Source: Rhizobium sp. Q54
Lineage (GTDB): Bacteria > Pseudomonadota > Alphaproteobacteria > Rhizobiales > Xanthobacteraceae
Direction: 5' to 3'
DNA length: 64,000 nucleotides
NCBI GenBank assembly: GCA_945870035.1
Contig: CAMBQQ010000006.1
Coordinates: 1 to 64,000, forward strand
Under the pieces are notes generated by a model that saw nothing but the letters and a program-made list of their open reading frames with translations, was not told where the DNA came from and did no database searches. A program made the position numbers and the translations under genes. Within the stretch, counting starts at the first letter, position 1, and every line of letters starts with the position of its first letter. Below, in pieces: positions 1 to 7,308 of this stretch.

Positions 1-308
1 GCCGCCCGCACCTTCGGCGTCGTCGTTGCTTGGCTGTGAAGTTGGATCAACATGCCCGAACCCCGCTTCGAATGTCCCTCAGGATCGATCTTGCCATGAA
101 AAAAGCAGAGCGACGAGGGTCTATGTGATCATCCGGGATGGAACAGGTAGGCTTGCGAAGAGCCTCGCGGAGTTCCAGCCCTGCACGGGCCGCGAGCCTG
201 TGTAAAAGCGGCATGACTGGCACGCTTGCGTCCGCGAGGGTGGACTTGGGGAGAGGCGATCCTCACTCTGGGTGATACAGCAGAATCACTCCGGCTCGCC
301 GAGCGTCC
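1..308. other. Region upstream of dnaE with no supported gene
   Basis: No reading frame here has a recognisable product. Frame 1 carries an open stretch that stops at 37-39 and could be the last codons of a gene lying to the left, but it is too short to identify. I see no good Shine-Dalgarno sequence directly before the dnaE start and no convincing terminator. The region presumably holds the dnaE promoter; its position cannot be fixed by eye. Confidence 0.5.
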
Positions 309-3300
309 ATGTCCGATCTCGATTTCGTGCATCTGCACGTTCATTCGTCCTATTCGCTGCTGGAAGGCGCGCTGCCGATCGCGCGGCTGGCGGAACTCGC
401 CAAGGCCGACAAGCAGCCGGCTTTGGCGCTGACCGACACCGACAACATGTTCGGCGCGCTCGAATTCTCCGAGAAGGTCGCCGGCTACGGCATTCAGCCG
501 ATCATCGGCTGCGCGCTGGCCATCGATTTCGGCGACACCGACAACGGCGCCCGCAACGGCCTGGCGCATCAGGAACGCCAGCGCATCGTGCTCCTGGCGG
601 CAAGCGAAGAAGGCTATCGCAGCCTGATGCGGCTCAATTCGCGCGCCTTCATGGAATCGCCACCGAACGAGCCGCCGCGTCTCAAGGTCGAATGGCTCGA
701 CGGCGAAACCAACGGCATCATCGCGCTGACCGGCGGTCCCGGCGGCCCGCTCGATCTTGCCATCGCCGCCGGCCAAAGCCAGGTCGCGGCGGCGCGCATC
801 GATATGTTGCACCGCCTGTTCGGCGACCGGCTCTATGTCGAATTGCAGCGCCACGGCGCCGCGCATGAGCGTATGACCGAGCCGGTACTGATCGACTTCG
901 CCTATAGCCGCAACCTTCCGCTGGTCGCCACCAACGAGCCGTTCTTTGCGACAGTGGCCGATTACGAGTCGCATGACGCGCTGATCTGCATCGCGGAAGG
1001 CCGCTACGTCCACGAGACCGACCGCCGTCACCTGACCACCGAGCACCGCTACAAGACCCGCGCCGAGATGCGCGAATTGTTCGCCGATCTGCCGGAGGCG
1101 GTTGCCTCGACCGTCGAGATCGCGCAGCGCTGTGCCTTCCGCCCGAAGACGCGCAATCCGATCCTGCCGCGCTTCTCGGTCGGCGCCGACGGCGCCGCCG
1201 TCGACGAGGCGAGCGAGTTGCGCAACCAGGCTGTGGCCGGTCTCGACCGGCGCATCGCCACGGCCGGCATCGCCGAAGGCTTTACCGAGGCGCAATACCG
1301 CGAGCGCCTCGATTTCGAACTCAACGTCATCGAGAAGATGAAGTATCCGGGTTACTTCCTTATCGTGGCTGACTTTATCCAGTGGGCCAAGAACCAGGGC
1401 ATTCCTGTGGGTCCGGGCCGCGGTTCGGGCGCTGGCTCGCTGGTCGCCTATTCGCTGACCATCACCGATCTCGACCCGATCCGCTTCGGCCTTTTGTTCG
1501 AGCGCTTCCTCAATCCGGAACGCGTGTCGATGCCCGATTTCGATATCGACTTCTGCCAGGACCGCCGCGAAGAGGTGATCCATTACGTGCAGGATCGCTA
1601 TGGCCGCGACAAGGTTGCGCAGATCATCACCTTCGGCACCTTGCAGGCGCGCGGCGTGTTGCGCGACGTCGGCCGCGTTTTGCAGATGCCGTATGGCCAG
1701 GTCGACAAGCTGTGCAAGATGGTGCCGCAGAATCCGGCAGCGCCCATCACTTTGGCGCGCGCCATCGAGGACGAGCCGAAACTGCAGGCCGAAGCCGACA
1801 GCGATCCGACCGTCAAGCGCGCTTTTGCCATCGCCCGCAAGCTTGAGGGTTTGACGCGGCACGCCTCGACGCACGCCGCCGGCATCGTCATCGGCGACCG
1901 CGCTCTGTCGGAACTGGTGCCGCTCTATCGCGATCCGAAGTCCGATATGCCGGTCAGCCAGTTCAACATGAAGTGGGTGGAGCAGGCGGGGCTGGTCAAG
2001 TTCGATTTCCTCGGCCTGAAAACGCTGACGGTGTTGAAGACTGCGGTGGAATTGCTGGCGCGGCGTGGTGTGACGGTCGATCTCGGCGCCATTCCGCTCG
2101 ACGACAAGAAGACCTACGATCTGTTGGCGCGCGCCGAAGCGGTCGGCGTGTTCCAGCTGGAAAGCCAGGGCATGCGCCGCGCGCTTCTCGACATGCGGCC
2201 CGACCGCTTCGAGGACATCATCGCGCTGGTCGCGCTGTATCGTCCGGGCCCGATGGCGAACATCCCGACCTATTGCGCGCGCAAGCACGAACTCGAAGTG
2301 CCGGACTACATCCATCCCAAGCTTGAGCCGGTTTTGAAAGAGACCTTCGGCGTCATCGTCTATCAGGAACAGGTGATGCAGGCCGCGCAGCTCTTGGCCG
2401 GCTATTCGCTCGGCGACGCCGATCTGTTGCGCCGCGCCATGGGTAAGAAGATCCGCTCCGAGATGCAGAAGCAGTCGAGCATCTTCGTCGAGGGCTGCGT
2501 CGCGCGCGGCATCGGCAAAGCGCAGGCCGAAGCGATCTTCGAACTGCTCGAACGCTTCGCCGATTACGGTTTCAACAAGAGCCACGCCGCGGCTTACGCG
2601 CTGGTCGCCTACCAGACCGCTTATATGAAGGCGAACTACCCGGTCGAATTCATCGCCGCGTCGATGACGCTCGACATGGGCAACACCGACAAGCTGTCGG
2701 AGTTCCGCGCCGAGGCCGAACGCATCGGCATCAAGGTCGATCCGCCGTCGATCAACCGCTCCGACGTCGCCTTCGAAGTCGATGGCAACACGATCATCTA
2801 TGCTTTGGCGGCGCTCAAAGGTGTCGGCCGCGAAGCGGTCAAATCGATCATCGCCGCGCGCGCCAACGGACCTTTCGCCGACCTCGCCGATTTTGCCGCC
2901 CGCATCAATCCGCGCGCGGTCAACAAGCGCGTGCTGGAAAGCCTGGCGCAGGCCGGCGCTTTCGATGAATTCGACAAGAACCGCGCCCGCGTTCTGGCCG
3001 CGGTCGAAAAGGTCATGGGCATCGCCCAGCGCACGCATGAGACCGAGGCCGTCGGGCAGAACGATTTCTTCGGCGGCAGCGGCAAGGCCGAGCCGATCGC
3101 GCTGCCGCAGGTCGAGCCGTGGCTGCCGGCCGAAAAGCTGCGCCGCGAATACGAGGCCGTAGGCTTCTTTCTGTCCGGCCACCCGCTCGACGATTACACC
3201 GCCGTCCTGAAAAAGCTGCGCGTGCAGTCCTGGGCCGAATTCTCGCGCGCGGTGAAGAACGGCGCAACCGCCGGCAAGGTCGCCGGCACCGTGGTGTCGC

Positions 3301-3781: not shown

Positions 3782-5386
3782 TTGTTCAACAGACTGATCG
3801 CGCGCACCGGCTTTTTGCCGCGGCCCGGCGACGATATCTCGATCTTCGTGCTGGCTCCGTTTGGCGTGTCGCTGGCGCTGATTTTGGCCGCCTTCGTCGC
3901 CTTGTTTTTCGCCTTCGGCTTCTGGTGGCCGTACTGGCGCGTCGGCGACATGGATATCTGGATGGTCTATCAGGCCTTCCTGCTCAATGACGGCCTCGCC
4001 CAGGAGTATTTCGATCACCCGGGCTATCTGTCGATCATCTCGCTGCACTATTGGCTGGCGTTGTTGAAGTCCGCCGGGCTGATTGCCGTCGACCGGCTGT
4101 CTTTGCTGCCGCCCGCCGCGGATATAGCCGCGTCGCAATCGGCCTGGATGAAGGCGACGCAGGCCGCGCGGCTTCTGTCGCTTGGCTATGCCTGCCTGTT
4201 CATTGTGGTGTTTGGCCTGCTGCTGCGCCGGCTGCTGCATGACTGGCGCATCGCCGTGCTCGCGGCTTTCGTGCTGGCCTTTTCAAGCGGCGTGCTGATG
4301 GAAGGGCGCATCGTGCGCACCGAACTCATCCCGGCCGCCTTCGCCTATTCGGCGCTGCTGCTGTGCCTGATCGCCGGCGATTTGCGGCGGCCGGTGCGCC
4401 TTGCTGCCATTGGCGTGGCGAGCCTGCTGGCGACTTTGGCGCTGATCAACAAGGTTCAGTTCTTGTTTTTGCTGCTGACCTTTGCCCCGATCGTCTATTT
4501 CTGCGCGCCGTCACGGCCGGCTGCGACGGATAGAGACGACATGCCGCTACCGATATGCGCGTTGCTCTGCGCCGCCGCTTTGGCGCTGATCTATCTGGCG
4601 TCGCCACTCATCGTGGCGGGCTTTGCCGATCCGGCCGCGTCCGCCAGGCGGGTGGCGACATTCGCGACGCGGTTTCCGCTGTATCAGGCCTTCGCCGTCC
4701 TTTGGGTGCTGGGCTGGAGCGTTGCGCTCGGCGTCAAATGGCGCAGCCGTCCGCGCGCGATCGTATCGGCGCTGGGCTGCATCGGCGGTGGCGTCAGCCT
4801 CGGCCTTTTGTCGCTATCGGGCGCAGCGCCCGGCAATATAGCGGTCGTCTTCAATCCGCTTGAGCAGATGATCGGCTTCATCCCGTATGCGGAAACGCCG
4901 GGCGCGCCGCCGCCGTCGTTCCTGCGTCTCATGGTCGACAGCGGATTGCTGCTGCTCGCCCGGTTGACCTTCGTCCTCAGCACGTCGGCGCGCAGCACGG
5001 TTTTCCTGGGCTGGTTCGTTCTCGCCGGGATCGTCTACGCCTGGCGCTCGGGCGCGCGTAACGTCGCGGCGCAGGCGGCGCTGATGTTCGTCGCGGTTTG
5101 CGCCGTCGATTTCGTCGGCGCGTTTCGCGGTCTCAAGCTCGAATACTTCATCATCACCGATCCGCTGCTGATTGTGGCCGCGGCTTGGCTGCTCGCCAAG
5201 GCGCCGTCCTTGCGGCGCCACCGCCTGGTGCGTCCGGTCGGGGTGCTTCTGTTCGGCGCGATGATCGCTGTCGGCGTGGCCGAACCGGTCAAGCACAGCT
5301 TCAAACGTGATGTTCCTCTCGATTTCTGCCGGCCATATTATCACTATACGTCGCGGATCGAACGCTTCTCGTTCTGTCCGCCCTAG
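3782..5386 (+). CDS. Multi-span membrane protein, GT-C glycosyltransferase-like
   Basis: 534 aa with roughly ten or more hydrophobic segments, the first at about residues 21-50. Just after it, GDMDIW (D56, D58) lies in the first external loop, followed by an HPGYLS segment. An acidic motif in that loop is typical of GT-C enzymes of the PMT/ArnT kind, which move sugars from polyprenyl-phosphate donors. The C-terminal tail is short and carries [10 protein letters not shown] and a final Cys-Pro-Pro. I start at TTG 3782 because GAGGGGG stands a few bases before it and the gap to dnaE is only 23 bp, so the two genes may be co-transcribed. I do not recognise a named gene; an O-antigen or lipid glycosylation role is inference from topology alone. 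Confidence 0.6.
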
Positions 5387-5466
5387 CTGACGGGGCATCG
5401 ATCCTGCCCCCTGCCTGGGGGCATCAAGGTTGTGCTGAGCGTAATCCATATGGGAGCGTTGTAGCG

Positions 5467-7308
5467 GTGTCGGATGTCGGAACTACCCATCGGCTTGATC
5501 GCCCTGTCGATCCTGTGCGTGACCATATGCTCGGGCCGGACAAGGCGCCGATTACATTGGTCGAATATGGCAGCTATGCCTGCCCGCATTGTCGCGCCGC
5601 CAATGACCGCATCGCCGAAGTGCGCGATGAACTCGGCGAGCGCCTGCGCTATGTATTTCGCCACCGCCCGCTGACCGGCAGTGACATCGCGCGCCGCGCC
5701 GCCGACCTGATCGAGCACTGCGACGATCCGAAGAAATTCTGGGACATCCACATTCTGCTGATGACACGCTCGGGAACTTTGACCGAGGACGATCTGCGTG
5801 TCGCCGCGCTGGAATTGGGACTGACCCCGCAGGATCTCGATGCAGAGGCGGACGGCGCCAAGCGCGCCAAGGCGCGCGTCGATGCCGATATTGTCAGCGC
5901 GCGCGCCAGCGGCGTCATGATCACCCCGACCTTTTTCATGAACAGCCGCCGCTACGACGGCCCGTGGGACGAGAGTTCATTCTCGGACGCGCTGTTGAAC
6001 ACGCTCGGTCATCGCGTGCGCACGGCGGCGCTCGACTTCGCCGGCTGGGCGCCGTCGGCCGGCATTCTGTTGCTGCTGACCACGGCGTTGGCGGTGATCC
6101 TGACCAATTCGGCCATGGGTCCTGAGTTCACGGCATTTTGGCAGAAGTATCTGGGCTTGAGTTTCGGCGATGCCAGCTTCCGCATGTCGCTGCTGCACTG
6201 GGTCAACGACGCGCTGCTGACCATTTTCTTTCTGGTCGTCGGTCTCGAAATCAAACGCGAATTCACGGTCGGCCATCTCGCCAGCCTGCGCGCCGCCGCG
6301 CTGCCGATCGCGGCGGCGATCGGCGGCATGGTGGCGCCGGCGCTATTGTACTTTTTCGTCATTCCGTCCGGGCCTTGGGTGCACGGCTGGGGCGTGCCGA
6401 TGGCGACCGACACGGCCTTCGCGATAGCGCTGATTGCCATGATGGGGCGGCGCGTTCCGGTCGAACTGCGCATCTTCCTGACCGCGGCGGCGATCGTCGA
6501 CGACATCGGCGCGATCATCGTTGTCGCGATTTTCTATTCGGGTGCGCTGAACCTGCTGTACCTGGCGGCGGCGGCGGGCTTTGTCGCGGTACTGGCGCTG
6601 CTCAACCGGTCGCGCGTCTACAGCGTGGCGCCTTACATCCTGATCGGCACCGGCCTGTGGATCTGCGTCTTTGCCGGCGGGCTGCATGCGACCTTGGCCG
6701 GCGTGGTGCTGGCGCTGTTCATTCCGACGCGGCCGCCGCCGAACCTCAAGGCTCTGATCGTCCAAGCCAACACCATCATGGCCGCCGAGACGAAGCACAA
6801 CGAGGAAGTGCTGCGGCACGGCCCGTCGGTGCCGGCGCTGCGCGCCATCGACGCCATTCATGACCGTCTTGAATCGCCGGCCGACCGGCTGCTGCGCCAT
6901 GCCGGCGCACGCTCGAGCTATATCGTGCTGCCGATTTTCGCGCTGGCCAATGCCGGCGTCGCGCTCTCGATGAATGTCATTCACGGCCACGAACAGTTGA
7001 TGCTGGCGATCGTCGCCGGTCTGGTGATCGGCAAGCCGCTGGGGCTCGTTCTGGCGTCGGTGCTGGCGGTGTGGTCGGGGCTGGCGGTTAAGCCGGCCGA
7101 ATATTCCTGGCGGCAACTGGGCGGCGCGGGCGCGCTGGCCGGCATCGGCTTCACCATGTCGCTGTTCATTGCCGGGGAAGCCTTCCCGGTGCCGGAGGAC
7201 TTCGCCGCTGCCAAAATCGCGGTTTTCGCCGCCTCCGTCCTGTCCGCCGTCATCGGCGTCGCGGTGCTCTGGTCGGCCAGGCCGCCCGCGGACGCCCAGG
7301 AGGGGTGA
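5467..7308 (+). CDS. nhaA: Fusion of DsbA-like thioredoxin domain and Na+/H+ antiporter NhaA
   Basis: 613 aa. Residues about 1-180 form a DsbA/thioredoxin-4 type domain with the active site C39-P-H-C42 and a cis-Pro loop (T153-P154). Residues about 185-605 are a complete NhaA antiporter: [10 protein letters not shown] (D315, equivalent to E. coli D133) and IVDDIGAI (D345, D346, equivalent to D163/D164), with the 30-residue spacing conserved, plus a GKPLG motif near the position of E. coli K300. NhaA exchanges Na+ for H+ across the inner membrane for pH and salt homeostasis. There is no signal peptide, and the E. coli NhaA N-terminus is cytoplasmic, so the thioredoxin domain probably faces the cytoplasm. 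The GTG start at 5467 is the first that includes the whole thioredoxin fold. NhaA proteins with an added thioredoxin domain are known, more often at the C-terminus. Confidence 0.93.

Follow-up and report, generated by a model that had tools for sequence, protein, structure and literature searches.

A thioredoxin-like domain at the N-terminus of NhaA antiporters and its possible role as a cytosolic regulatory cap

The 64,000-nucleotide stretch of DNA analysed here (hereafter, the window) carries a gene in which a DsbA-like domain is joined in a single frame to the N-terminus of an NhaA antiporter. Sequence comparison is sufficient to establish the fusion, its fixed junction, the intact ion-site residues and, by charge and homology, the cytosolic side of the added domain, and likewise to establish that there is one N-fused clade in which two lineages have no thiol site and keep the domain. 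The reading that we favour, at a little short of an even chance, is that the domain is a cytosolic regulatory cap that tunes the cytoplasmic access of NhaA and that is under thiol control only where the CxxC motif is kept.

The fused gene and its product

The fused gene (5467-7308, plus strand) encodes a protein of 613 amino acids, begins with GTG and ends with TGA. On translation its single frame contains no internal stop, the GTG is the earliest ATG, GTG or TTG downstream of the preceding in-frame stop, and a possible ribosome-binding site, GGGAG, can be read off the sequence at 5452-5456 (+). The continuous frame for a DsbA-like domain and NhaA proposed by the initial annotation is borne out by this 613-residue frame and by Pfam matches above cut-off for both domains, and each residue that it had named (C39, C42, cis-Pro154, D315, D345 and D346) is found at its assigned position. 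In the window genome, which is 91% complete, the fused gene is the only NhaA found, and Thioredoxin_4 has five further matches, of which one is weak.

Residues 18-176 (5518-5994, +) match Thioredoxin_4 (PF13462; E 2.3e-18, 67.3 bits against a cut-off of 23.2), and phmmer relates them to the DsbA-like PDB chains 3gyk, 3eu3 (BdbD) and 6eez. The CPHC active site, C39-C42 (5581-5592, +), has the active-site motif of Escherichia coli DsbA; a CxxC motif is present in 54 of 76 aligned relatives, a fraction that is not a population frequency, the 76 rows having come mostly from the best 80 of at least 583 loci. The proline of T153-cisPro154 (5923-5928, +) is present in 75 of the 76. Besides C39 and C42 the protein contains only two cysteines, C85 and C400. 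Judged by eye, the succession of strands and helices along residues 20-176 of the AlphaFold model fits a thioredoxin fold; in a fold search with the whole model the NhaA part fills both lists, with no thioredoxin-fold chain among the matches listed. The domain shares sequence family, CxxC and cis-Pro with the periplasmic oxidoreductases DsbA and BdbD, from which it differs in having no visible signal peptide and in being fused to a transporter.

Residues 196-601 (6052-7269, +) match Na_H_antiport_1 (PF06965) with E 2.6e-126 and 421.9 bits against a cut-off of 23.5, the protein scores 359.4 bits against TIGR00773 (cut-off 254), and the NhaA part of the AlphaFold model superimposes on E. coli NhaA (7s24) with Z 49.5 and rmsd 1.9 over 369 residues. 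By alignment, D315 (6409-6411, +) takes the place of E. coli D133, an ion-site residue there, D345-D346 (6499-6504, +) that of D163-D164 and K523 (7033-7035, +) that of K300, so that three acidic residues and the lysine of the ion site are all intact. By these matches the window antiporter is a member of the NhaA family and a predicted Na+/H+ exchanger. It shares with E. coli NhaA (PF06965, TIGR00773) the whole fold, the D133, D163, D164 and K300 positions and the pH-sensor positions E78 and E82; it differs in the extra N-terminal domain, in a TM8-TM9 loop of about 46 residues and in a leucine at the position of E252. A C-terminal nucleotide-binding RCK domain was not matched by Pfam in the window protein.

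The last two differences were considered as adaptations to the fusion and both were set aside. The long cytosolic TM8-TM9 loop (residues 423-468 by alignment; 6733-6870, +) was rejected as a docking site made specifically for the domain, because 34 of 71 unfused NhaA proteins likewise have a long one: the loop is 37-56 residues in these 34 and 4-8 residues in the other 37. As an observation in its own right, the longer loop separates those 34 proteins (e.g., L190-L201 and L205-L223) from the short-loop E. coli type. The E252 position of the pH sensor is L476 in the window protein and leucine in 50 of the 54 CxxC members. The counts suggest a co-loss of the glutamate with the fusion, which received no phylogenetic support, there being only two independent pairs on the tree; six proteins (L058, L060, L064, L067, L073 and L080) are fused and have kept the glutamate.

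The initial annotation had placed the domain in the cytoplasm with no signal peptide, and here hydropathy, loop charge and the relatives with no visible leader in the domain tree all agree with it. The highest 15-residue hydropathy within residues 1-40 is 0.23, as compared with 2.64 in TM1, and no signal peptide is visible in residues 1-40 by hydropathy. Among the 76 members, with loops taken from the AlphaFold model, the mean number of lysines and arginines is 11.6 in cytosolic and 1.4 in periplasmic loops, and when the long loop is excluded the cytosolic loops carry more of them than the periplasmic ones in 75 of the 76. In the domain tree, judged by eye, the N-fused domains group with small stand-alone proteins in which no leader is seen before the domain, and four DsbA-like proteins from the window's own genome, at least three of them with leader-like N-termini, lie apart on long branches. 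In addition, the transporter part has its fold match in E. coli NhaA, the N-terminal tail of which acts at the cytoplasmic entrance (PMC13408996). The thioredoxin-like domain should therefore lie in the cytosol.

The frame just upstream of the fused gene (3782-5386, +) encodes a membrane-like protein of 534 residues for which neither Pfam nor NCBIfam gives a match. From the translations, we take the other neighbours to be dnaE upstream and rpsB-tsf downstream; L002, a close relative, likewise encodes a DNA polymerase III alpha protein upstream of its fused gene. A frame of 1017 residues (129-3182, minus strand) is open opposite the likely dnaE and is most likely a shadow frame of G+C-rich DNA.

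Junction, distribution and origin of the fusion

A scan of one genome per species, covering 84,980 species, gave at least 583 confirmed loci, of which the best 80 were kept. Identical NhaA parts were counted once in the 76-row set; rows were left out of it for being short or broken (L044, L045, L050, L055, L065 and L068), for an in-frame stop (L016 and L019), for being partial (L051) or for a contig end ahead of the active site (L049 and L054). Among the omitted rows, L044, L045, L050, L055, L016 and L019 have CxxC and L068 does not. L080, L081 and L181 (the same gene as L080), in which phmmer finds no thioredoxin match, were classed as N-fused by hand on the basis of an N-terminal extension of 174-181 residues and of the retained Y163, W167 and D168.

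The domains meet in a junction of residues 177-195 (5995-6051, +), delimited by alignment, which contains F191 and W194 and in which pLDDT is below 50 at residues 178-192. An in-frame TTG (residue 177) and an in-frame GTG (residue 184) are present there in the window gene, and they are what would have to be invoked if two genes had been read as one through an error of gene calling or assembly and NhaA were made from an internal start. We find this barely conceivable. The spacing from P154 to S197 is exactly 44 residues in all 76 aligned N-fused relatives, so the fusion is not a gene-calling artefact; the junction is free of indels in all of them, and in 73 of the 80 kept loci (the best 80 of at least 583) phmmer places a thioredoxin match ahead of NhaA in one and the same open frame. 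The remaining seven comprise L080 and L081, with an N-terminal extension of the right size and no significant thioredoxin match, the partial L051 and L065, and the broken L016, L019 and L068. On these alignments, chance or assembly error is ruled out as the source of the fusion. Two of the broken loci, L016 (near 3655) and L019 (near 3636), have an in-frame TAG at different places early in the NhaA part of a frame that is otherwise open; both are metagenome-assembled genomes (MAGs) from the same DeepCast 65 m study, and either a nonsense mutation or a sequencing error may account for the stops. L068 (2971-4800) is a Nitrosospira copy lacking CxxC that is split over two frames.

Several residues near the junction distinguish the N-fused proteins. 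Y163, W167 and D168 (5953-5970, +) are invariant in 76 of 76, whether CxxC is present or absent. W167 occurs in none of 36 domains that are not N-fused (5 C-fused, 5 stand-alone and 26 from long open reading frames), Y163 occurs in 3 of the 36 and D168 in 8, namely in all five C-fused and three of the five stand-alone domains, and D168 is hence less telling. W194 is nearly specific, being present in 74 of 76 N-fused proteins versus 1 of 76 C-fused and unfused NhaA proteins. F191 is present in 75 of the 76 and is not specific to the fusion, since 68 of 71 unfused NhaA proteins also have phenylalanine there; ungapped extension of the sequence and fold alignments puts it at the position of E. coli Phe7, the plug residue.

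The N-terminal fusion appears taxonomically broad and patchy in these searches, in the manner of an accessory gene. Record titles assign it to Pseudomonadota, Nitrospirota, Candidatus Binatota, Planctomycetota and Bacteroidota. Members from the first three phyla are mixed in one clade, and thus transfer, or a binning error for single MAGs, is possible; the Bacteroidota members include an isolate, Flavobacterium segetis. The genome counts are lower bounds, for fusions scoring as two separate matches would be missed: in an even draw from the window's phylum at least 4 of 398 genomes (G000, G111, G235 and G299) have a match spanning both domains, and at least 234 of the 398 have NhaA of any kind; in the phylum of L073 there are at least 2 of 247, namely the query's own genome and G520, where the match starts at residue 59 and contains a stop; and the corresponding counts for the window's family and genus are at least 13 of 198 genomes, among them G794, in which the fusion is divided between two contigs, and at least 4 of 11. 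The long open frames of G167 and G151 were rejected as hidden further fusions for want of a thioredoxin match. A Deinococcus plasmid frame, L120, which tblastn aligns from residue 23, was rejected as well and counted as unfused: Pfam finds nothing in the stretch ahead of NhaA, and the start of the annotated gene lies within the frame.

Both orders of the two domains exist. A plasmid collection contained 15 records with a place covering at least 80% of the query, and nine were examined; the domain is C-terminal in five (Shinella, Streptomyces, Tsukamurella, Nonomuraea and Stutzerimonas), N-terminal in three (Sinorhizobium, Phyllobacterium and Paroceanicella, where the genes are annotated simply as NhaA) and absent from the Deinococcus record. 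The trees, which are unrooted, were built from rows thinned by hand and are weak at the deepest branches among N-fused rows, keep the two orders apart. In the careful 51-row tree for the NhaA part the N-fused proteins form one side of a branch with support 99/97 and the C-fused proteins a clade with 100/99, with two changes of fusion state in all; a quick tree of 100 rows, which contains 19 of the 22 members lacking CxxC, concurs with two changes and SH-aLRT values of 94 (N-fused) and 99 (C-fused). The claim that the N-terminal order is a distinct arrangement thus holds, with both orders found here in separate NhaA clades. The C-fused proteins resemble the window protein in having the same two domains, CxxC and a domain placed at a terminus predicted to face the cytosol; they differ in the reverse order, in their separate clade (100/99) and in lacking W167, and about 21-36 residues lie between their Pfam matches in the four that were scanned.

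A quick 63-row tree of the thioredoxin-like domain unites the N-fused domains in one clade (SH-aLRT 97), to which the C-fused domains and small stand-alone proteins are nearest. Among these nearest relatives are stand-alone DsbA-like proteins with no visible leader (e.g., L155, L184 and L185) that share CxxC and the TP pair with the window domain and differ from it in being unfused and in lacking W167. The NhaA and domain trees each contain one N-fused clade, which fits a single fusion of a cytosolic domain to NhaA followed by inheritance and transfer as a unit. Apart from this, the C-terminal fusions of a Shinella plasmid (L117, 2995-4860) and a Stutzerimonas plasmid (L123, 2872-4737) are very alike, with branches of about 0.02; such likeness between alpha- and gammaproteobacterial plasmids suggests recent spread, and the plasmid hits H9 (Aeromonas) and H15 (Pseudomonas) look similar to them.

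Retention and loss of the thiol site

The 54 CxxC members comprise 31 with CPHC, 14 with CPYC and 9 with other motifs. The other 22 of the 76 fall into two lineages, both of which retain the domain, the junction and Y163, W167 and D168. The first consists of seven Nitrosospira/Nitrosovibrio copies with D-x-x-S and a kept cis-Pro; it represents a loss of CxxC, because the five included in the tree are nested inside a CxxC clade. The second has fifteen members from Rhodobacterales, Azospirillum, Bacteroidota and others, of which the 14 in the tree form one clade with support of 100; three have the first cysteine left and one (L076) the second. With the thiol site lost in two lineages and the domain kept, thiol chemistry is probably not the domain's whole function. 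The link between thiol redox state and Na+/H+ exchange that the initial annotation had suggested is partly supported by the 54 members that keep CxxC and is not supported as a general rule, given 22 members of 76 without CxxC and two changes on the tree.

Substitution rates, in which dS is near saturation in most of the clades compared, differ between these lineages. The median dN/dS is 0.126 in the domain and 0.103 in the NhaA part of the cysteine-less Nitrosospira copies, and 0.087 and 0.114, respectively, in the Nitrosospira CxxC set; judging by these ratios, purifying selection continues to act on the cysteine-less domain of Nitrosospira. In the Rhodobacterales-type group, where dS is near saturation, the values are 0.353 for the domain versus 0.248 for NhaA, and in Bacteroidota 0.477 for the domain (four pairs) and 0.061 for NhaA (one usable pair). 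The domain dN is about twice the NhaA dN in the Rhodobacterales-type and 2.6 times in the Bacteroidota members, and this faster change of the domain is also compatible with relaxed constraint there. Pfam still detects the thioredoxin domain in the Bacteroidota member that was modelled, and AlphaFold gives for its residues 11-150 a block of mean pLDDT of about 86 whose strands and helices are similarly ordered. A domain that serves only the folding, membrane insertion or dimer contact of NhaA and regulates nothing would persist in this way without CxxC, and would place its invariant residues near the junction, as observed. It would leave unexplained the complete CxxC and cis-Pro of 54 of the 76 members and a constraint about equal to that on NhaA in the tested clades, and we regard a purely structural role as quite unlikely.

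The cysteine content of the antiporter bears on whether the domain could make or break a disulfide with a cysteine of NhaA itself. C400, the commonest cysteine there and present in 41 of the 54 CxxC members, would be the candidate partner; against it, the model places C400 within a transmembrane helix and 7 of the 22 members lacking CxxC have it too, and it was rejected as a general redox partner. In 10 of the 54 CxxC members the NhaA part (residues 190-604) contains no cysteine at all, so that disulfide chemistry on the antiporter, which had also been suggested, is contradicted in these members and cannot be general. A switch of this kind is, in our estimate, highly improbable.

A possible cytosolic cap and its alternatives

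Several observations on the N-terminus of E. coli NhaA are pertinent here. In a 2026 paper, the N-terminal tail is described as a previously unresolved plug that blocks the cytoplasmic funnel in one class of cryo-EM particles; this class is present at all tested pH values, is commonest at low pH and decreases as the pH rises (PMC13408996). According to the same paper, growth at pH 7.0 and 8.3 stays near wild type when residues 2-13 are deleted, as does antiport activity at pH 6.5-9.0 (PMC13408996). The tail may thus be involved only in fine-tuning, which counts against a cap.

In the mechanism that we favour, a DsbA-like cytosolic domain would have been joined in a single event to the N-terminus of NhaA, itself cytosolic, and would act as a regulatory cap over the cytoplasmic entrance of the antiporter. 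The junction would carry the counterpart of the E. coli Arg6-Phe7 tail, which can plug the funnel, and as the tie is short, fixed in length and bound to the plug tail, the domain should sit close to the entrance, where it may gate transport. In the CxxC members, the window protein included, the dithiol or disulfide state of CPHC would alter the seating of the cap, and thiol stress would in this way alter Na+/H+ exchange; in the members lacking CxxC the cap would have been retained for a non-thiol job, e.g., binding, stability or dimer contact. Counting against the cap, phenylalanine at F191 is common in unfused NhaA, and D168 and Y163 of the patch are found outside the fusion, as far as the alignments go. 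The model of the window protein, with a linker pLDDT below 50 and an overall pTM of 0.63, does not give the orientation of the domain. A narrower version, in which the dithiol/disulfide change itself opens and closes the funnel and the two lineages carry a Cys-free pseudo-oxidoreductase that gates in response to another signal, appears to us rather unlikely.

It is also possible that the fused protein is a membrane-tethered oxidoreductase, with NhaA serving chiefly as its anchor or as a stress function inherited along with it, and that CPHC acts on other cytosolic thiols. Such a role would suit the CPHC or CPYC kept in most CxxC members (31 and 14 of 54), the closest domain relatives, namely the C-fused domains and small CxxC proteins that stand alone, and the ten CxxC members with no cysteine in NhaA. 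It is harder to reconcile with the 22 of 76 members whose domain has no CxxC, with a rigid junction and W167, neither of which a loose tether needs, and with the gene neighbourhoods: no shared partner gene was found among 84 neighbour ORFs at 24 loci (84 of 115 ORFs, picked mechanically and in part not genes), where the 128 Pfam families occur in at most three ORFs each and the top family is in 3 of the 84. A tethered oxidoreductase is, in our view, doubtful.

The nearest working analogue of the proposed cap is KefC, a cation/proton exchanger that is inhibited by a glutathione-binding cytosolic domain, its RCK domains being held against the transporter with AMP and GSH present (PMC11150392). 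As described there, KefC resembles the window protein in its broadly similar transporter fold and in a cytosolic domain coupled to thiol chemistry, and differs in that the domain is a C-terminal RCK domain that binds GSH, with no thioredoxin domain, and in its selectivity for K+ (PMC11150392).

Both domain families are known and the C-terminal order exists, so the N-terminal order alone is of modest novelty. Entries for NhaA proteins fused to thioredoxin domains exist in protein databases. The possibility that the arrangement is widespread and already characterised, raised at the outset, is upheld as regards taxonomic breadth, sparse though it is, and not as regards characterisation, none having been seen among the open-access papers listed. 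A search by titles and the beginnings of abstracts, with subscription journals mostly outside its range, found no description of an NhaA-thioredoxin fusion among the papers listed; two papers mention NhaA and thioredoxin, in unrelated places (PMC6106888, PMC3382624).

Ion exchange gated by pH has one of its models in NhaA. What makes the question of regulation testable here is the combination of a fixed junction, a single clade and a thiol site lost twice. A folded domain is tied in fixed register to the plug tail, in thiol-active and thiol-dead versions that in some cases occur side by side: the ammonia oxidisers G401 (Nitrosovibrio; L005 and L040) and G403 (L062 and L178) each have one fused NhaA with CxxC and one without. 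These paired versions constitute a natural experiment on the possible gating of NhaA by a cytosolic domain and on the importance, if any, of its thiol state. Judged by record prefix, Nitrosospira 56-18 (L012 and L068) may be a third genome with both kinds.
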